NCBI RefSeq assembly: GCF_003340495.1
Contig: NZ_QASA01000001.1
Coordinates: 1,240,001-1,304,000 of the forward strand
DNA length: 64,000 bases
Direction of reading: 5' to 3'
Source of the DNA: Adhaeribacter pallidiroseus
GTDB lineage: Bacteria; Bacteroidota; Bacteroidia; Cytophagales; Hymenobacteraceae
Part shown: in pieces, positions 51,737 through 64,000 of the stretch
How positions within the stretch are numbered: position 1 is the stretch's first letter
How the letters are laid out: each line of letters opens with the position of its first letter
Position numbers and translations under genes: made by a program
Notes under the pieces: model-generated
What the model saw: the letters and a program-made list of their open reading frames with translations, nothing else
What the model was told of the DNA's origin: nothing
The model's database searches: none

Positions 51737-52222
51737 ATGACAGGATTCAAAGAGAATACTATAAAGATAGCATCTGCGCTAGGTCTCTCTAATGACAACT
51801 TTGCAGCTGTTGGGATTCATGATTGGCCATTAATCATGCAGAAGATTGAACGGAACTTTGTAAAGAAGGAAAACTCCAATACTAAATTTAATTGGTGGTG
51901 GGAAAGCTTCAAAGGTCCTCATTTTAGTATTGATTTTATAAATGATAATGCTTTTATATTCCTTGATCAAATAGTTGATAAAGAAGAAAAAGTTTGGTTT
52001 GTGGCTTGTGATTCTGATTATGACCCAAGTAAGTTTTGGCTGTTTCAAGGATATATCAACCCAATTCAAAAGATAATTGGAGAGCTACCTTATATTGAAT
52101 ATTATATAGTATCCAAAAAATATGAATGGTTGATTTGTGAAAGTGACCATGGTGTGTTAATAGGATTAGGAAGTATTATTCCTAAAATGCAGCAATTTAA
52201 AATAGAAAACAACGTGGCCTAA
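51737..52222 (+). CDS. AT-rich hypothetical protein, cassette-like
   Basis: A 161-residue soluble acidic protein without a recognised family. Its start MTGFKENTIKIASALGLSND and Trp-rich middle (NWWWESFKGPHFSIDFI, VWFVACDSDYDPSKFWLFQGYI) recall the small single-domain proteins common in immunity-type or gene-cassette settings, but I cannot name one. The base composition is clearly more AT-rich than neighbouring genes. It is flanked upstream by a decayed repeat and downstream by an attC-like palindrome overlapping its stop codon. Transfer is likely. Confidence 0.7.
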   Translation: MTGFKENTIKIASALGLSNDNFAAVGIHDWPLIMQKIERNFVKKENSNTKFNWWWESFKGPHFSIDFINDNAFIFLDQIVDKEEKVWFVACDSDYDPSKFWLFQGYINPIQKIIGELPYIEYYIVSKKYEWLICESDHGVLIGLGSIIPKMQQFKIENNVA

Positions 52223-55558: not shown

Positions 55559-56320
55559 CTAACTGATCTCGCCGTTTTTAGCTATTTCCAGTTCTTCAAT
55601 AACCGCATTTTGCAGCGCGGCAAATTCTATTTCCCGATGGGTATCCCGGATAATTATAGATAAATCTAAGGCAGCAAAATCATTTTTACGACCAATGGTT
55701 GTTTTACCTAATTTATCAAAATCCCCGTTGATATCGGTAAAACTTTGCACCCACGTCAGGATAGGTTTATCATCTACTTTACCCAGAAACTTACCGAATA
55801 CACCGGCTACCGAAAACAATAAGTCCGAGATTTGGGTAACGGCACTGGCATTTTTCACGACCTCTTTTAAAGTAGAAACCACACTGGCAAATTCCGGATC
55901 ATTCTTTACATCCGACATAACTTTAGCCACATCGCGCAGGTTTTGTTTACTTTTTAAAATAGAGGCCAGCACGTGAATTTGGCTGGGGCTTTTATCTGTA
56001 ACTTGTTGCTGTTTCCAGAAATAGATAGTTTTATCCACGGGCAAATCTTCATTATCTCCTACTTTGGCAAAGCCTTTCAGTTCCAGATTCTGCAACGCAT
56101 CGCCCGTGTCGCTTACCACAATTAGCATCAGATACATTTTAGAAAATCCGGGAAAGGGCCCAATCTTAGGTGTTTTATTATTGATAATAAAGGCCCGCGA
56201 CAAACGCACCTCAATGCCCGTTATATTTTGAGAAGTAGCAATGCCTGCGGGTTTACTATTTTCGGCTCCTTCAAAAGCAAATTGCTCCACAAAAGCGTCT
56301 TCTTTAATGTTTAATGCCAT
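55559..56320 (-). CDS. Hypothetical protein, last gene of the hydrolase group
   Basis: A 253-residue soluble protein without signal peptide; I recognise no family. The first 100 residues are strand-rich (ITGIEVRLSRAFIINNKTPKIG, FSKMYLMLIVVSDTGDALQN, KTIYFWKQQQVTD), the middle is helical (ASVVSTLKEVVKNASAVTQISDLLF), then VAGVFGKFLGKVDDKP and FAALDLSIIIRDT. It could be a binding or regulatory partner. It lies downstream of the lipase gene, but a MITE-like repeat at 56466-56606 intervenes. Confidence 0.7.
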   Translation of the reverse strand: MALNIKEDAFVEQFAFEGAENSKPAGIATSQNITGIEVRLSRAFIINNKTPKIGPFPGFSKMYLMLIVVSDTGDALQNLELKGFAKVGDNEDLPVDKTIYFWKQQQVTDKSPSQIHVLASILKSKQNLRDVAKVMSDVKNDPEFASVVSTLKEVVKNASAVTQISDLLFSVAGVFGKFLGKVDDKPILTWVQSFTDINGDFDKLGKTTIGRKNDFAALDLSIIIRDTHREIEFAALQNAVIEELEIAKNGEIS

Positions 56321-56465
56321 AGTTTCTGTTTTGTTGAACCAGGATATTGTTTTTAAACCAATCGCTATTACTTTATTCTTGCGCCCAGCTTTTTACCAAA
56401 TGGTATCCGGAAGAAGCTGGTAGGTTAGAATTAATACAAACTATATCTGAAAGATAGACAAAATC

Positions 56466-56606
56466 AGGGCTTACGCAAAAAACTCATAAAGTCGTTTGTG
56501 AAGACACAAACGATGGCACCGAAAAACACATCAAGTCGTTTGTGAAGACACAAACGGCGGCATCGCCCATTGGCAGTGTCCTCACTGCCAACTTTGCGTA
56601 AGTCCT
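56466..56606. repeat. MITE-like element with terminal inverted repeats
   Basis: Terminal repeats AGGGCTTACGCAAA (56466-56479) and TTTGCGTAAGTCCT (56593-56606) match except one base. Inside are two copies of the hairpin CGTTTGTG-AAGA-CACAAACG (56493-56512, 56537-56556) and one TTGGCAGTG-TCCT-CACTGCCAA (56570-56591). About 141 bp, non-coding: a miniature transposable-element-like structure. Confidence 0.75.
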
Positions 56607-56696
56607 AAATATAAATAATTCCCGATTCTGGAAAGTTAAGTGGACCTGCGCTATTACCTATAAATAAAATTCCCTTTTAAAAAAGGGAATATAAAG

Positions 56697-56981
56697 TTAG
56701 CTGCCGTCCGGTTTCTGCTTGAACAACCATTTGGTCCACAGTAATTCTGTGCGCAATAAAGTGTAAGATTTAGCCTGCTGTTTACCGGATTTTTCGAAAT
56801 AAATGCTTTTATTAAAGCTTTTGCCTAATAACTGGCTGATAAAAATACCTAGTAATGGAATGGCTGTTGTTTTGTTTCGTTCGCTTTGGCCGGGCGCTAG
56901 GGTTGCTTCTAAATTTTTGGGCCGGGCGCGTAGCTGCGGCACGGAGAGAGCCGTATTTTTAAATTTTTCGGAAACTCCCAC
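56697..56981 (-). CDS. Small hypothetical protein (GTG start)
   Basis: A possible 94-residue basic protein that would start at a GTG (56981), 37 bp after the lipase stop. Codon usage looks coding (RKxP-rich: LRARPKNLEATLAPGQ, GKQQAKSYTLLRTELLWTKW) but there is no family match, ATG or strong Shine-Dalgarno. It may be a real small gene of the hydrolase group, or a chance frame. Confidence 0.4.
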   Translation of the reverse strand: MGVSEKFKNTALSVPQLRARPKNLEATLAPGQSERNKTTAIPLLGIFISQLLGKSFNKSIYFEKSGKQQAKSYTLLRTELLWTKWLFKQKPDGS

Positions 56982-57018
56982 CGTACCTTTATGCTATTGA
57001 CAGATTTTAAATAACTTT

Positions 57019-58419
57019 TTATGCCACAATAACTTGGTTGCCATCCGCTACGAATTGTTCCGGTTCATCGGGGGCGGATTTAATGGGCGGCGCTAAAAAA
57101 TGCTGGATTATATCGGCGAACATATCTCTGCAAACCCAGTATCTGCTGTGCGTAAAACTTATTCGGCTGGCTTTAAATTGGCAGTTTATGTTTTTCACTC
57201 CCTGGTAATAATCCAAAGAACCGCTTACGTAATCGTGGCCGTCCCAGTAATTATGCCAGGTAACGTCATCAAATAATCGTTTTTCGCAAGGCTTTACGAT
57301 AAATTTATAATCCGATTGGTTTACCCAGTCGCGTTGCTTAAAGCCATGAAAATTGTTGATGATCTGGGCCCGCAAGTACTCTTTATCTGCAACCTGTTCC
57401 CGGAAAAAGAAGGCGATTTTGTCTAAAGGGCTGCCAAAAGTTACTAAACCGGCAAACCTTTCGGAAATTTTCCGGCCATCGGCGGGGGAGTTACAAGTAC
57501 CGTTGCCGGAGTAGCCGTTTATTTCGCCCTGATTTACTAAGTGGTTTAGCCGATTTATGGCGTCAAAAGCTACCTGGCTGCCCAAAGAGTGCCCGGCGAG
57601 CAAAATTTTGCCGTAGGTAAAGGCGGGTGTTCCTTCGCTGGTTACCGCGCGAGCTTCCAGCAAGTATTTCAGCGCTTGCACGGCTCCGTCTAAAATGCAA
57701 TTACGAATTTTAAAAAAACGCGATTTAGCATCGGTTGTATTATAAATAGCAATGTCGTTGAGTACGTTGGCTATTTTGTCAAAAGTACCGTTTAATTTGT
57801 CTTGCAGGAATAAAGAAACAAAAGAACCAATAATGGGAATGGCAGTTAATAATTTCACCCCAAAATCAATGATCCAGTTCAGAAAAACAAATAATTGGGG
57901 CAAGAAGCTTACGCAAAACCAGTAACGAAACGGCTTAAACGCGCTATCTTGAATAAAAATGCTCCGGTCGTTGTTCGTTTGCGCAAAATTTACATTATCC
58001 CGGTAAAATTTACGGGCTCCTTTGGTAACATTATTCAGCCAGGTATTTAAATCTTTGATAGTCGCTTGACCTTCGGTTTCGTGCGCCCAGTAGTATTCGT
58101 AAATATCTAAATGCGGGTCTTCTGCATTTTTCGGGTAAATTCTTAAGAAATTATCGAACCAAGGCACCTCACTGTCCGAAGCTGTTTTTTTAGCCAGTAG
58201 ATGTTGAATTTCCAAGTCATAACCGGCGTCCTGGTACGTTTCCACTAATTGGCTGGCAAACCCGTCGAGGGTTTCTAAGGGATTTTGATTGCCAATACCG
58301 TGAATAACCAGAATGGCCGTATCTTGTTCCGGCCACCGACCGCCGAGGGCTTTCCGGAGATCGGGGTAGTGAGTAAGGGGCGTACTGGAATTTAGTTTAA
58401 ACTTTTCGTTTTCGGACAT
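57019..58419 (-). CDS. Lipase-like alpha/beta hydrolase with membrane segment
   Basis: A 466-residue alpha/beta hydrolase. ILVIHGIGNQNPLETLDGF (residues 36-54) provides the oxyanion His40 region, GHSLGS (Ser278) the nucleophile, Asp333 (GSPLDK) is a likely acid and HNYWDGHDYVSG (His395) a likely base. Between the oxyanion loop and the nucleophile is a long insert including a hydrophobic stretch at about 168-206, predicting membrane association; there is no signal peptide. It resembles DUF/lipase-type effectors that attack phospholipids, but no substrate is proven. A 20-bp palindrome lies 61 bp upstream. Confidence 0.8.
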   Translation of the reverse strand: MSENEKFKLNSSTPLTHYPDLRKALGGRWPEQDTAILVIHGIGNQNPLETLDGFASQLVETYQDAGYDLEIQHLLAKKTASDSEVPWFDNFLRIYPKNAEDPHLDIYEYYWAHETEGQATIKDLNTWLNNVTKGARKFYRDNVNFAQTNNDRSIFIQDSAFKPFRYWFCVSFLPQLFVFLNWIIDFGVKLLTAIPIIGSFVSLFLQDKLNGTFDKIANVLNDIAIYNTTDAKSRFFKIRNCILDGAVQALKYLLEARAVTSEGTPAFTYGKILLAGHSLGSQVAFDAINRLNHLVNQGEINGYSGNGTCNSPADGRKISERFAGLVTFGSPLDKIAFFFREQVADKEYLRAQIINNFHGFKQRDWVNQSDYKFIVKPCEKRLFDDVTWHNYWDGHDYVSGSLDYYQGVKNINCQFKASRISFTHSRYWVCRDMFADIIQHFLAPPIKSAPDEPEQFVADGNQVIVA

Positions 58420-58715
58420 AATTCTTTGATAAGCTTATACAAACAACCTTAAACGTATGGAACAGCCGGTACTTTTGCAATACTGATTTTTCAGTATTTT
58501 TTAAATTTTTAAATTCTTAAGGGCGATAGATGGTCTGGTTGCGATAAGGCGGATTTGTAGGCTGGCATTCTGTTATTCTAATCGTCTGCATAAACTCGTT
58601 TCCTATTGCTGAGTGGAATTAGAAAAAGTTTCCTTAAAAAAAGGCTGATTTTAAATGCTTGCCAAGATTCCAAAATCAGCCGAAGATGCTAGTAGTTTGC
58701 TTTCGAAAGGATCTG
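58420..58715. other. Gap between lipase and dipeptidase genes
   Basis: About 300 bp holding the palindrome at 58480 and presumably the lipase promoter. No gene was recognised. Confidence 0.35.
58480..58508. promoter_or_regulatory. 20-bp palindrome with T-rich tail, copy 1
   Basis: AATACTGATTTTTCAGTATT (58480-58499), followed by TTTTAAATT. Perfect 8-bp half-sites with a 4-bp centre. It lies 61 bp upstream of the lipase start. Identical palindromes at 63531 and (reverse orientation) 63690. Candidate operator; a mobile repeat is the alternative. Confidence 0.5.
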
Positions 58716-60491
58716 CTAGGAAGTTCTCTTAACTAAGGGTTTTACCGGTGCCAAGGCAAAGCCGCGGGTTTCCAAAAAGCGTTTGCCATTTTCAAACATA
58801 ATACCACGGATTAATTCTCTTACTTTAGCATCGTCTATTTTACCTTGAGCGTTGGTGGGTAGGAGCGTAGAGCCGCCATTTTCTTTGCGGTAAGCTTTAT
58901 CGGCAATGGGTAGCCATCTTAAAAGTACTTTTTCCAGGTCGGGCATTTTTGAGGAATCGCGGCAAATTTTTACCGGGTCAATTAGCCCGTCGAAATCGCT
59001 GCCGATGCAGATATGTTCCCAGGGATTCGGCGCTTGGGCCTCAATTTCGGCTTGGTTGGCTTTAGCTACCGCCACGATGTGCAGCAAATTAAAGCATAAA
59101 CTTAAAGGGTGCCGCTCTTCTTTAGTAGGAATAAGCCACGACTCGGCGGTTTCCAGGCTTTCCAGCGGTTCGGTGCCCAAGCCTCTTACCTGCAGGTGCG
59201 GGAAAAAAGTTTTAAAATCGGGTACCGACAAGTATTCGGATTGTTCTTTGGCGCCTAGCCCTATTTTGGCCTGGAAACCGAGTATGCGAACATCCAGCGA
59301 TATGCCAATCAGCCCGCCCGAGCGCAGCACCTCCACAATATCTTCGTCCATTAAATTAATGCTCCAAGGGTTAAAAGTAAATTCCTCATTCAGATCGGAG
59401 CCCCACTCGCCGGCTTTTCTTCTTTTGGTCGTAATTTCCACGGCCCGGATGCCCGCCTGCGCAAAACCGGAAAATTTAGAGATAGCCTCTACCCACTCGG
59501 GCAGCGAATAACCGGTTACTCCTACGTGCGAGGCAATTAGCGGAATATGCGCATAGGCGGCATTGTTTTGGCGGAGCGCGTATAAATCTTGCCGCGATTT
59601 TAAACCCATGTGCTTAATATCTATTAAAATGGGTGTGGCCTTATCGGTTCCATCAGCTTCTTTTACCGTCATGGTATAGGCGGCAGCCACTACTTCTTTG
59701 CCCAGCGGCGTAATGCCGTTGCCCACCGGGTAAAAAGCGCCGTGTTTCAGCATTTTCATCCCGAAAGCGTGGGTGGCCAAAGGTTGCTCGATAATGTGGG
59801 ATAAGTGAGTTAAGGTAATGTAAAAAAGATCCATCCCTTCGGCCCACAAGGCTTTATGTAGCCGTTGCAAGCTCGCCACCACTCCGGCGGGTTCCGCCAG
59901 ACAAAAATCCTGATAAACGGCATCGGCTTTGCCGTTGGTGGGCTGGGCATCGTATACGTTGGGTTTGGCTACCTTTACCCGCGATAAATTATGGCCGCCC
60001 TCCATGCCTAAAGCAAGAAATGTTGTATCGCCTTCTAGCTTTACGGGATTTTTCCGGGTTAAAAACGCTACTTTCTCATTTGGATTTTTAGCCAGCGTCC
60101 GGTAAAGGTCCAGTTCTTTAATAAACATGCGGTAATACGAGACTTCGCCCAGCCGCACCGATTTCATGTGTCGCTGGTCGAGGGGGCGGGTCCAGTTCGA
60201 TTTTAAGAGCTTAGATAGAAAACCTTCGCTGTCGGCAATGCCGTGTTCAATGGCTACTACGTTGGCAATTCCCAGCCGTACGCCGCCTTTCTGCATTTGC
60301 TCCAGGCAACATTGGCTCTCCAGAATGTGCAGCACTTCTTCGTCGGCCAAATCCATCAGGTCGTTTTTTAAATCCATGGCCTTGATGAGTTCCGGCGCTT
60401 GCCGCGTGGAAGGATAGTCTTCTTCGAAGCGGGTAATAAATTGCTTGAAAACCGGGTGAAAATGAAAATCAAAATAAGATTGCTGGGCCAT
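58716..60491 (-). CDS. M19 (renal dipeptidase)-like metallohydrolase
   Basis: A 591-residue cytoplasmic protein of the M19/amidohydrolase fold, larger than usual M19 dipeptidases (about 350-400). Visible metal-site elements: FDFHFHP (His10, His12), the bridging Glu164 in LGMEGGHNLS, TLTHLSH, DIKHMGLKS (His294), IASHVGVTG (His322) and GSDFDGLIDP (Asp499 or Asp501). It ends GIMFENGKRFLETRG, like the M19 helix. The extra length comes from an N-terminal insertion and a middle insert around 180-215 and 345-450. Its start lies 11 bp after the dual-protease stop, so the two are one transcript. Confidence 0.85.
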   Translation of the reverse strand: MAQQSYFDFHFHPVFKQFITRFEEDYPSTRQAPELIKAMDLKNDLMDLADEEVLHILESQCCLEQMQKGGVRLGIANVVAIEHGIADSEGFLSKLLKSNWTRPLDQRHMKSVRLGEVSYYRMFIKELDLYRTLAKNPNEKVAFLTRKNPVKLEGDTTFLALGMEGGHNLSRVKVAKPNVYDAQPTNGKADAVYQDFCLAEPAGVVASLQRLHKALWAEGMDLFYITLTHLSHIIEQPLATHAFGMKMLKHGAFYPVGNGITPLGKEVVAAAYTMTVKEADGTDKATPILIDIKHMGLKSRQDLYALRQNNAAYAHIPLIASHVGVTGYSLPEWVEAISKFSGFAQAGIRAVEITTKRRKAGEWGSDLNEEFTFNPWSINLMDEDIVEVLRSGGLIGISLDVRILGFQAKIGLGAKEQSEYLSVPDFKTFFPHLQVRGLGTEPLESLETAESWLIPTKEERHPLSLCFNLLHIVAVAKANQAEIEAQAPNPWEHICIGSDFDGLIDPVKICRDSSKMPDLEKVLLRWLPIADKAYRKENGGSTLLPTNAQGKIDDAKVRELIRGIMFENGKRFLETRGFALAPVKPLVKRTS

Positions 60492-60502
60492 TTTTTTAAA
60501 AT

Positions 60503-63259
60503 TTAGCGCTGGAAACTCTCAAAATAATCGTTTAGTATTTGCTTGCTCTTGATTCTACTGTTGGGCGAAGCAGACTCCAGGCCACTGGGGGGCTGGCTTT
60601 TGATTAAAGCCGTGAGCGCTGTTCGGCCGCGGCCGGTGAGGTTTACGAAATCCGTGGATTCCTGGTGGCCCGGCGTTACTTTCCGTTTCAAGGTATTCCA
60701 TAAAAAATGGATGGCTTCCCGCACCCCTAAATCGGCTTTAGCTCTTCCATTTACGTCTTTGTACGCATAAGTCAGTGCTTCTTTTGGAGGCGGTTCGCAT
60801 TGCAGCAGCTTATCTATATTCAGGATTCCTTTCCCGTACATATTTTCTTTCCAGGTATAGTGATCTGGTTTCCGGGCGCTGGTCTGTAAGCAGTACCGGA
60901 AAGCTTCTACCACTTGCCATTTCTCCGGATATTTTTTTATTTCAGCGCTATAACGGGCTTTCCATAAGGCGGCGGCGGCGGCCACGTGGGGAGTAGCGTA
61001 ACTGGTGCCGTCGCCGTAGGCCATTATTTCCTGGCCGTCTTTATCCACAAAAGGCACGTACACCGATTCGCCGGGGGCCGCAATATCCACGGCGGGTCCG
61101 TAACTGGTACCGCTCCAGGGCTTTTCGTCGGGGTTGATGGCGGCTACCGCAATGGTGCCGGCGTATAACGCGGGGGCTACCACCATTTCTACTTCGTTGC
61201 CGGCCGCGCACACCCAGATTACTCCGTTGTCGTAAGCCAGTTTGGCGGCTTTTTCCATCATGGGGCGCGGGTAACTACCCATGCACATGAATATAATATC
61301 GGCGTTATTACTTACGGCGTGGTTCACGGCACTTACTAATTCTTTGCCGCCGCCCAGCAGCACTACCGTTTTGGCAATGCGGTAAGGAATCAATTTTAAT
61401 AAGGTATTATTCGAATCGTACAAAATGCCCTGATTCCCTTCGTTGGCGTAAGGCGGTTTGATGGTGCCGCCAATTACCAGGCTGGCGGTGCGGGTACCGT
61501 GGTTCGGATGTTTAAAAAACCATTTGGCCAGTTCGTCATGGGCATCGGTGTCGTTATCGATAAAATCCATGTCGAACTGCAAATTATAGGCTTCTTTTAC
61601 CTTGGAGTGGGTAGAATAGCCCGTGTCGAACTGCACGAGTTTTAAATCGCCAATATTTTCTTTAATAGCTTCCCATAACTTAGCATCTTTCTGCGTTTCT
61701 GTAAATTTTACGGCGCGCCAGTTCCATCTTCTTACGGCAGGCCAATTTTTATTTGCTATTTCGGCTTTACATAAAACGGAATCTTTCCATTTTTCTAGGA
61801 ATTTATCTTCGTTCCAGGTGGCGGTGCCGTCGTTGTAAATAACATCCACCGCCGATTCCTGACCGGTAGGTTGACCGCCAAAATTAACACCGGTACTGGC
61901 TACATCGGTATAAACCGGTAAATCCGGAGTGCAGGTATCAATATGAGGCAAGGCTTCTATTTCGGCGGCCAGCTCCCAGGGCGCCCGGTCCGACTTTACC
62001 GTGAGGTAGTAAAAACGCCTTTGGTCGGCATCCGAGGCGTACGGGAAAATGGGTTCGCTTTTCACCAAACCCGTTAAAAACGTGCGCGCGTTCGTTTTCC
62101 AGTCTTCCTGCAAAGCTTCCATGGCAGATAATTCTACCTCAAAATATTGCAGACCGCCCGGCCTGGCTTGCGGCAATTCCGGAGCAGGCGCACTTTCCGA
62201 GAGAGGGGCGGGCGGAGGAGCCACTGCTGTCTCTTTTGGGGCGGGCATCGCGGCAATTTCAAAAATCTGGTTGCGGTATTGTTCCATTTCTTTCGGGATT
62301 TCGATTTTAGCAATTGCTTTTAAAATGCTGCTGATCCGGATGCCTTCGTTGCCCATCCAGTCGATCACATCGTCCGGGTCGCCGGGCTCCACCACGGTGC
62401 CGTTTTTGCGCAGCCACTGGCCTTGGTTGTTGCGGCGGGGTACCCCGCTGTGGTGCAAAGCCACTACTTCGCCGGTACCCAGCCCTACCACCATGCTGCC
62501 CGACGAGCCCGGCAAAGTATCGGACTCGTAGATTAAAAAATTATCGGTGAGCGTGAGCATCCGGATGTCTTTGAGTACTACTTTTTTATAGTCGCCGGCT
62601 GGGTGTTGAATTACGATGCAATTTTCGCCGTCCAGGATTTTACCTAAGCTTTTATCTAACCGTACCGGCTGAAAATCCGTAACCGCTATGCCTTCTTCCG
62701 ATTTGGTTTCGATCGCCACAATGGTAAAATCCAGGCCACTAAACGGCACCGTGATCTGCTTTTCGATGGGCGAGGTCATGTAAAAAAGGTCGGGCCGCAG
62801 TTTAAAAGTTACCGGGTCGGAGGCGCCGGTGCCCAGCAATTCGTATTTAAATTGAGCCAAAGAAGTTTGGGCGGTTTCGGCATCGGGCAGCACGTGGTTG
62901 TTAGTAATAATTAAATTGGGGGCAATTAAAAACCCCGTACCGTACCCTGAGCCCCCAAAGGGGCTGCGAATCATGACGCGGCACACCGATTCGGAGAGCT
63001 GTAAGATTTTGCGCAGCACCAGTACGTCCTGGAAATTGGGCACGCCATTGATGCGCTCTACCGCGTCAACGGGGGCCAATCCTTCTCGCTCAATGCGTTG
63101 GGCCAGGCGGGCTGCTTCGTCGGGGCTTTGGATTTCCGTTAAAGTTACCTGGCCTTTGCGGTTATGGTAAATACCGTTTTTTATTCTTTCAATTTCCCGG
63201 ATAGAGGCCGAAAAGCGGTCGGAGGCGTAATTGGCAACACTGGTTTGGCTTTTATCCAT
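60503..63259 (-). CDS. Dual trypsin-like/subtilisin-like serine protease
   Basis: A 918-residue protein with two complete serine-protease triads. Residues ~90-320 are a trypsin/V8-like domain: GTGFLIAPNLIITNNHV (His122), GLDFTIVAIE (Asp177), LPGSSGSMVVG (Ser253). A Pro/Ala-rich linker spans about 338-366, followed by an inhibitor-like segment (370-450). Residues ~535-800 are a subtilase: VQFDTGYS (Asp545), HPNHGTRTA (His587), AAGNE (Asn688), GDGTSYATPHVA (Ser753). No signal peptide or sorting tail, so probably cytoplasmic. It may autoactivate or act sequentially on substrates. First gene of the group; a long leader region with palindromes lies upstream. Confidence 0.9.
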   Translation of the reverse strand: MDKSQTSVANYASDRFSASIREIERIKNGIYHNRKGQVTLTEIQSPDEAARLAQRIEREGLAPVDAVERINGVPNFQDVLVLRKILQLSESVCRVMIRSPFGGSGYGTGFLIAPNLIITNNHVLPDAETAQTSLAQFKYELLGTGASDPVTFKLRPDLFYMTSPIEKQITVPFSGLDFTIVAIETKSEEGIAVTDFQPVRLDKSLGKILDGENCIVIQHPAGDYKKVVLKDIRMLTLTDNFLIYESDTLPGSSGSMVVGLGTGEVVALHHSGVPRRNNQGQWLRKNGTVVEPGDPDDVIDWMGNEGIRISSILKAIAKIEIPKEMEQYRNQIFEIAAMPAPKETAVAPPPAPLSESAPAPELPQARPGGLQYFEVELSAMEALQEDWKTNARTFLTGLVKSEPIFPYASDADQRRFYYLTVKSDRAPWELAAEIEALPHIDTCTPDLPVYTDVASTGVNFGGQPTGQESAVDVIYNDGTATWNEDKFLEKWKDSVLCKAEIANKNWPAVRRWNWRAVKFTETQKDAKLWEAIKENIGDLKLVQFDTGYSTHSKVKEAYNLQFDMDFIDNDTDAHDELAKWFFKHPNHGTRTASLVIGGTIKPPYANEGNQGILYDSNNTLLKLIPYRIAKTVVLLGGGKELVSAVNHAVSNNADIIFMCMGSYPRPMMEKAAKLAYDNGVIWVCAAGNEVEMVVAPALYAGTIAVAAINPDEKPWSGTSYGPAVDIAAPGESVYVPFVDKDGQEIMAYGDGTSYATPHVAAAAALWKARYSAEIKKYPEKWQVVEAFRYCLQTSARKPDHYTWKENMYGKGILNIDKLLQCEPPPKEALTYAYKDVNGRAKADLGVREAIHFLWNTLKRKVTPGHQESTDFVNLTGRGRTALTALIKSQPPSGLESASPNSRIKSKQILNDYFESFQR

Positions 63260-63709: not shown

Positions 63710-64000
63710 GTGGGTGAAACAGACTTCTCTTACATTTAATTTTATAAACCATCGGGAAACTTGGCTTCCTGCAACACTTTGCATCAAACAGTAATACGGA
63801 TATAACCCAGGTTTTTACTCCTTACTGCTTCCTTCACAATATACGATTGCTCAATTAGCTATCGCTGACAAGCATCTATTGAATATAGAATAAGATGAGG
63901 CTACAAGAAATCCGTCCTTGAACTTTAGGATGGGATTTCATAGCGTATTATTGAAAATTCACTCCTATAAAAGTTGTCATGAGACTAGGCCAATTTATAC

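Follow-up and report, generated by a model that had tools for sequence, protein, structure and literature searches.

Near one end of a 64,000-nucleotide stretch of the Adhaeribacter pallidiroseus genome (the window), five genes for hydrolases and unrecognized proteins lie on the same strand. A first-pass annotation made from the letters alone proposed that they form a single module, perhaps a protease-triggered conflict system. We asked which of these genes belong together and what the conserved part might do. The features of the locus are as follows.

60503..63259, minus strand: S1-I9-S8 protease, 918 aa (S1S8; core gene 1)
62456..62941, minus strand: Trypsin_2 (S1) domain, residues 107-268 (Pfam, E 1.4e-14)
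61925..62152, minus strand: I9-like (subtilisin prodomain) fold, residues 370-445 (structure model and PDB match)
60830..61627, minus strand: Peptidase_S8 domain, residues 545-810 (Pfam)
58716..60491, minus strand: M19-fold metallopeptidase, 591 aa (core gene 2)
57019..58419, minus strand: alpha/beta-hydrolase (lipase-like) with a hydrophobic insertion, 466 aa; outside the conserved pair
56697..56981, minus strand: 94-aa ORF with a GTG start, no family
56475..56610, no strand: genome-dispersed palindromic repeats
55559..56320, minus strand: 253-aa protein, family unnamed (alignment of 7 members); outside the conserved pair
63979..64000, plus strand: first bases of a divergent cassette of giant proteins, which continues outside the window

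A conserved pair within the gene run

The genes described in the first-pass annotation are real, and the linkage that it drew between the dual protease and the M19-like enzyme was borne out: S1S8 lies directly upstream of M19 on the same strand in 17 of the 81 M19-like loci examined, as well as in the window. The gap between the two genes is -1 to 103 bp in the 16 loci with both ORFs called; one locus (L036) was counted among the 17 by search match. A further locus (L026), at the edge of its contig, carries a C-terminal fragment of S1S8. The S1S8 and M19 distances correlate with r = 0.986 across 17 pairs (16 loci and the window) and with r = 0.959 across 12 non-redundant pairs, and none of 5000 permutations gave a correlation as high. 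The S1S8-linked M19 rows fall within one 20-row clade (100/100), together with three unlabelled rows. The window S1S8 protein is 67.9% identical to that of Rufibacter (L020), and S8 and trypsin occur as separate adjoining genes on a Sinorhizobium conjugative plasmid. The conserved unit is therefore two co-inherited genes, S1S8 and M19, and the five-gene module is not real.

The remaining genes did not travel with this pair: blastp matched neither the lipase, the 253-aa protein nor the 94-aa ORF in any of the 81 M19-like loci, which largely refutes the five genes as a conserved set. That they nevertheless form one dedicated system is highly improbable. All five share a strand, and hydrolase genes recur beside relatives of the 253-aa protein at other loci; however, the 253-aa protein was found in only 2 of 296 genomes and the lipase in 5 of 296 (own genome counted), and S1S8 was not found in the examined stretches of the other lipase and 253-aa loci (L108-L112). 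The 94-aa ORF may not be a gene. The palindromes that had been noted around the set proved to be repeats scattered across the genome, and we rejected them as a shared regulatory signature.

The association with other hydrolases that had been proposed for the run survives in a looser form. Relatives of the 253-aa protein elsewhere adjoin patatins, peptidoglycan peptidases or TPR-S/trypsin/CHAT genes, which places this protein outside the pair, in a loosely connected network of hydrolase genes; membership of that network is less clear for the lipase. Around M19, at least one gene from our hydrolase list occurs within eight genes in 42 of 80 loci, and such a gene occupies position -1 in 29 of 70, counts that are partly circular because the list was seeded with genes already seen near M19. 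Less circular are the cross-links between loci recovered with different queries (L146-L109, L146-L013, L109-L099 and L108-L066). Sequence profiles identified no solved relative of the 253-aa protein. A 217-aa protein that precedes S1S8 in one locus (L028) was considered as its homologue, and the match (E 0.038) does not support this.

Domain structure and catalytic residues of the two enzymes

In the structure model, the 918-aa protein consists of a helical N-terminus, a Trypsin_2 S1 domain, an I9-like fold and an S8 domain. As had been noticed from the sequence, it combines two catalytic domains and has no signal peptide or other export signal, and both triads are intact and conserved in relatives. 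The S1 triad (H122, D177 and S253) is kept in all 16 aligned S1S8 rows. The S8 domain has its Asp/His/Ser triad and oxyanion Asn, with D545, H587 and N688 kept in 16/16 rows and S753 in 15/16; the serine is lost in a single row (L032).

The I9-like fold has the predicted topology beta-alpha-beta-beta-alpha-beta, is flanked on both sides by low-confidence linkers, and has pro-subtilisin E (3whi) among its matches. Pfam gave no I9 match in the protein, although the fold appears in the model with mean pLDDT of 72-89 over the residue blocks spanning 371-450; the S1S8 model as a whole is only fair (mean pLDDT 66.7, pTM 0.53) and is weakest in parts of S8. Given this prodomain-like fold between S1 and S8 in the model, S8 is probably synthesized as a zymogen. 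Pro-subtilisins likewise carry an I9-like domain ahead of S8, whereas the 918-aa protein has an S1 protease and a helical domain in front and no signal peptide.

The 591-aa protein has an M19 fold. Six residues (H10, H12, E164, H294, H322 and D499), which we take to be equivalent to the binuclear metal ligands of M19 enzymes, are present in 42/42 M19-like rows. The canonical M19 motif, found in membrane and renal dipeptidases, is HxD; in contrast, the first putative ligand motif of the 591-aa enzyme and its relatives is HxH in 42/42 rows. The 591-aa enzyme also differs from these dipeptidases (PDB 3lu2, 1itq and 5lwz) in that the matched chains are ~190-280 residues shorter and in that it lacks an export signal.

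Known and predicted protease cascades and a proposed mechanism

The closest described kind for the pair is the trypsin-NucA peptidase cascade that Kaur et al. 2020 (eLife e52696) predict as System 3, in which S8 occurs occasionally. Both have a trypsin-like domain as the head and an additional enzyme encoded in the same chain or operon; S8 is present at times, and some operons recruit peptidoglycan enzymes. The pair differs in being without the NucA nuclease and a detected EAD, in having an S8 protease with an I9-like prodomain in the place of the nuclease together with an added M19 metallopeptidase, and in occurring in Bacteroidota whereas System 3 is mostly alphaproteobacterial. Because the nuclease is missing, we regard the pair as a variant of System 3 and not as a member.

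Pfam found neither a NucA/Endonuclease_NS nor an MBL family domain in the five window genes, and Pfam and NCBIfam found no nuclease, sensor NTPase or EAD domain in either pair protein; for EAD there was no Pfam match at E<1, and the N-terminus of the 918-aa protein is helical in the model. The S1 head is 35-41% identical to those of trypsin-NucA fusions. The genome encodes one such fusion elsewhere (L146; NucA/Endonuclease_NS, E 4.8e-38), and 22 plasmid records match it, 17 of them over at least 80% of its length.

Trypsin-like proteases activate a pro-nuclease in antiphage systems, according to Tuck et al. 2025 (Science). In the Hachiman, AVAST and Canu pairs described there, a linked proenzyme is switched on by a protease of the trypsin or caspase type, as proposed here; however, the partner in those pairs is an MBL-type nuclease, whereas here the proposed proenzyme is S8, part of the same polypeptide as its activator.

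Our preferred reading, held tentatively at somewhat less than an even chance, is that the pair is a co-inherited two-gene proteolytic unit, probably cytoplasmic, in which an S1-to-S8 zymogen cascade would work with M19, conflict being its likeliest use. A trigger would act on the N-terminal helical domain or on S1; cleavage would then fall in one of the flexible linkers (336-368 or 449-482), removing the prodomain and activating S8. Once active, S8 might degrade proteins of the cell or of an invader, leaving peptides for the M19 enzyme to trim. In the predicted trypsin-NucA systems a related S1 head bears a nuclease, and the pair could thus be their counterpart armed with S8 instead; its likeliest use would be an abortive or cell-dismantling conflict response. 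If so, it would represent a two-step protease zymogen cascade inside a bacterial cell, a protein-digesting analogue of the protease-gated nucleases demonstrated in antiphage systems, and a readily testable example of regulated protein breakdown.

Ordinary intracellular turnover, in which S1 and S8 cut proteins and M19 finishes di- or oligopeptides for reuse, is a somewhat unlikely alternative. A protease and a dipeptidase in one unit make the simplest pathway. In eight loci of Kaistella and Chryseobacterium the pair also lies between the same two neighbour families, which we take to be SPFH-like and dGTPase-like, an arrangement suggestive of a stable place on the chromosome. None of the PADLOC models fits the five window proteins (best E 0.0014 for the 253-aa protein and 0.0019 for the 918-aa protein), and the IetS model matches S1S8 at E 0.045 only. 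Against turnover stand the fusion of two proteases with a prodomain-like domain, the relationship of the S1 head to trypsin-NucA fusions, and rarity: among 395 Bacteroidota genomes sampled, with at most two candidates scored per genome, full-length S1S8 was found in one, the window's own. This rarity, the serine loss in L032, the shared neighbours in the eight loci, the lack of a PADLOC fit, the absence of nuclease, sensor NTPase and EAD matches in the pair and the modest quality of the S1S8 model were also counted against the conflict reading. The protease-triggered conflict system suggested at first is partly supported: the architecture of the pair resembles the predicted cascades of Kaur et al. 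2020, but the five genes do not co-occur and PADLOC gave no fit.

Genomic context and the giant DUF6603 cassette

We also ran PADLOC, with no control set, on 123 neighbouring proteins (112 of the 128 neighbours from 10 pair loci, after 16 were dropped for being short, overlapping or open-ended, and a further 11 proteins from the window and L018). At E 1e-5, 29 families matched, and 23 of the 25 listed matched one member; the matches include dGTPase (2 members), IetA (E 2e-59), RT_UG29, DrmC, QatA and TRIP13. Several look like housekeeping cross-matches. The IetA match is a single IetA-like AAA protein; in IetAS, IetA is the AAA protein that partners an S8 protease.

Delivery of the signal-less hydrolases as cargo of an injection system is very unlikely. 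The genome holds an eCIS-like locus (L113) about 290 kb away, relatives of the lipase lie close to a DUF4157-like protein in L109 and to a tube-like protein in L111, and an S1-endonuclease protein lies near an annotated DUF4157 gene (L131). However, the L113 sheath, tube, VgrG-like and PAAR-like ORFs had no blastp match in M19-like loci, a search with this single eCIS as query that a diverged eCIS could escape; the only L113 ORF that matched (L023, L030 and L035) is 451 aa long and probably encodes an AAA protein. Processing of a peptide natural product (RiPP) is extremely unlikely: genes annotated as lantibiotic dehydratase and LanC are found close to the copy on a Hymenobacter plasmid (L013), but were seen at that one annotated copy.

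The divergent cassette that begins at the window's edge encodes proteins of 574, 1171 (DUF6603), 1120, about 1900 and 622 aa and is found in bacteria and haloarchaea. A limited literature search on DUF6603 found no paper. In four of seven Bacteroidota loci (the window, Rufibacter L020, G471 and G110), an S8 gene lies next to the giants, and six of the seven giant-bearing genomes hold just 0 to 9 S8 places. One explanation is that the S8 protease matures or turns over the neighbouring giants and so processes the products of the cassette. This is distinctly unlikely, since S8 is absent from the examined stretches at G080 and G127 and from the whole G476 genome, the examined stretches of five plasmid cassettes (with incomplete gene tables) contain no annotated S8, and in 16 of the 17 S1S8-M19 loci the examined flanks gave no match to a giant. 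The window 622-aa giant is 60.6% identical to that of G471 and 35.2% identical to that of Rufibacter over its C-terminal 391 aa; the window giants are thus closer to those of G471, while S1S8 shares 67.9% identity with that of Rufibacter, which suggests that the two associations may be independent.

A broader reading, which we consider unlikely, is a protease-armed system of a kind without earlier description: an S1-activated, I9-gated subtilisin and an M19 finisher would act with the DUF6603 giants and their partners as sensor or scaffold, the protease serving as executioner or maturase; lipases, patatins, caspases, nucleases and peptidoglycan enzymes without export signals would be swapped between loci as alternative executioners. 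The very large proteins of the cassette are widely distributed, and the repeated presence of S8 genes beside them offers a first handle on the cassette.

A viral origin was considered and rejected: IMG/VR yielded no relative for the M19 alignment, S1S8, the two-row 253-aa alignment or the first 230 aa of the 622-aa giant. Among phage records, there were two S8-domain matches for S1S8, and one unannotated 'Bacteriophage sp.' record matches the 1120-aa giant (g1120).

The protease pair in the window

All five minus-strand ORFs that the first-pass annotation had claimed are present as described. The 918-aa protein contains the two expected protease domains, one trypsin-like (S1; Trypsin_2 at 107-268) and one subtilisin (S8; Peptidase_S8 at 545-810), with their catalytic triads present; a prodomain-like domain is also indicated in this protein, hereafter S1S8. 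The 591-aa ORF starts 11 bp downstream of the 918-aa gene, and modeling shows an M19 fold for its product, the nearest relative of which comes from Rufibacter latericius. The canonical M19 metal motif is HxD; HxH is found at this motif in 42/42 rows of our alignment of the M19-like subfamily.

Three accessory ORFs (466, 253, and 94 aa) complete the set. In the 466-aa ORF, we found hydrophobic segments along with motifs of the lipase type, and a phospholipase A1 structure matched a three-row profile weakly (E = 0.0032). Based on simple hydropathy, a hydrophobic N-terminal signal occurs in 0/5 proteins, consistent with the reported lack of export signals. The palindromes around the gene set are dispersed repeats. 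A DUF6756 protein at window positions 51737-52222 is seemingly unrelated to the pair.

Co-inheritance of the S1S8 and M19 genes

We scanned a profile made from five M19-like proteins against the GTDB species collection; this analysis identified 174 relatives, of which the best 80, plus a Hymenobacter plasmid copy (L013), formed a comparison set of 81 loci. A full-length S1S8 gene lies on the same strand directly upstream of M19 in 17/81 loci, a proportion among best matches rather than an estimate of the population fraction.

Loci with S1S8 directly upstream of M19: L013, L020-L025, L027-L030, L032, L033, L035-L037, L039

At L036, the gene caller missed the M19 ORF, and a search match places it beside S1S8. 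None of the three accessory ORFs had a blastp match (E 1e-4) in the 81 loci, so the proposed co-occurrence of five genes was not borne out.

S1S8 and M19 are co-inherited. Their pairwise distances correlate at r = 0.986 across 17 pairs (the window plus the 16 linked loci other than L036) and at 0.959 across 12 non-redundant pairs, and 0/5000 permutations equaled either correlation. A tree built from 77 M19-like proteins places every one of the 17 linked members within a 20-row clade with support of 100/100. The other clade rows, unlabeled as linked, are L026, in which S1S8 is present as a C-terminal fragment at the contig edge; L034 (7679-11674), in which a nucleotide-cyclase/TPR protein gene takes the place of S1S8 directly upstream of M19; and L038. 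The linkage label requires four changes on this tree, for which the simplest reading is a single gain followed by losses. The wider family in the tree set belongs to Bacteroidota, except for one row on a contig named Beijerinckiaceae.

Scoring up to two candidates in each genome, we recovered full-length S1S8 from 1/395 sampled Bacteroidota genomes, the window's own. S1S8 matched 83 plasmid records to some extent; one of the 83 covers at least 80% of S1S8, and that copy is paired. The Hymenobacter plasmid pair (L013, 19148-25716) has lantibiotic dehydratase and LanC genes in its vicinity.

Related hydrolase loci and known systems

At loci of the 253-aa and lipase families, accessory-gene relatives were not found together with the pair. 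The 253-aa family occurs in 2/296 Bacteroidota genomes (own included) and in 6/195 in one other family. In one genus, the member comes after a membrane patatin at three loci (L108, L155, L156); elsewhere it adjoins an M15 peptidase (L157) or diverges from a TPR-S/trypsin protein (L158). In the operon-like L159 (4021-13538), the relative has a 1772-aa LCAT/CHAT/TPR-S protein on one side and, on the other, a 456-aa TPR-S protein that matches a PADLOC TIR effector (E = 2.2e-7); a nearby patatin matches PADLOC phospholipase effectors. The lipase family occurs in 5/296 genomes, own included. The locus of one relative (L109) encodes a DUF4157-like protein as well as an enzyme with weak GH46 similarity, and that of another (L111) a tube-like protein; nothing comparable was found at L110 or L112.

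A second S1 locus of the own genome (L146, G000:C1:1841001-1860900) encodes a 707-aa fusion of S1 with Endonuclease_NS, an enzyme whose weak GH46 similarity falls below the cut-off (E = 3.7e-4), membrane proteins, and two small proteins common to other loci, and it shares families with L109 and L013. The eCIS-like L113 (G000:C1:1584001-1603900) has a sheath-like ORF (PF04984 just below cut-off) and ORFs that we take to be tube-, LysM-, VgrG-, PAAR-, and gp25-like. The genes beside unpaired M19-like genes encode DUF900 hydrolases, Amidohydro_2 with a membrane protein, caspases, patatins, a Tle1-like lipase, and amidases; L048 also has a separate S8 gene nearby. Enrichment by neighbor position is partly circular because the hydrolase list was seeded from those neighbors. 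Plasmids often carry S1-NucA proteins (22 records matched, and in 17 the match spanned at least 80% of the query), and on a Sinorhizobium meliloti conjugative plasmid (L162, 7593-12470) separate S8 and trypsin-like genes are adjacent, with a patatin near.

Kaur et al. (2020) predict trypsin-NucA peptidase cascades (System 3), the nuclease sometimes flanked by S8 domains, and Tuck et al. (2025) show a linked proenzyme to be activatable by a trypsin-like or caspase-like protease in antiphage defense. The pair resembles the trypsin-NucA cascades in kind; because it lacks the nuclease core, we do not class it as a System 3 member. This likeness, the plasmid loci, and the linked proenzyme lead us to favor a reading in which S1 would trigger a prodomain-gated S8 protease and the M19 enzyme would act after S8 as finisher; we infer zymogen activation of S8, its substrates, and a conflict role. 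Against this reading, no PADLOC model fits any of the five proteins, the Kaistella/Chryseobacterium copies of the pair look like stable residents, and one copy (L032, 7158-9995) has glycine in place of the S8 catalytic serine, with its S1 triad intact.

The adjacent giant-protein cassette

Window 63979-64000 and G000:C1:1303979-1320177 (L017, L018); plus strand; giant-protein cassette, divergent from the pair

The cassette products are 574, 1171, 1120, about 1900, and 622 aa long; the 1171-aa product is a DUF6603 protein (E = 1.7e-136), and a single literature search on DUF6603 found no paper. The 1120-aa protein occurs in 6/296 Bacteroidota genomes (own included) and was matched on 13 plasmid records, including Streptomyces, haloarchaea, Rhizobium, and Gemmatirosa; an annotated DUF6603 gene is adjacent in 5/5 annotated plasmid records viewed. 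A homologue is also present in MT835531.1 (36070-39231); this entry is titled Bacteriophage sp. and may be a mislabeled cellular contig.

The cassette has an adjacent S8 gene at 4/7 Bacteroidota loci:
Window: S8 gene divergent from the cassette
Rufibacter L020: same strand, S1S8 itself
Genomes G471 and G110: other S8 proteins

No S8 was seen at the G080 or G127 cassette loci or in the whole G476 genome, and 0 genes are annotated as S8 in five plasmid cassette stretches, whose gene tables are incomplete. Six whole genomes have 0 to 9 S8 places each; with so few, that many cassette-adjacent S8 genes are unlikely to have arisen by chance, on a rough judgment rather than a formal test.
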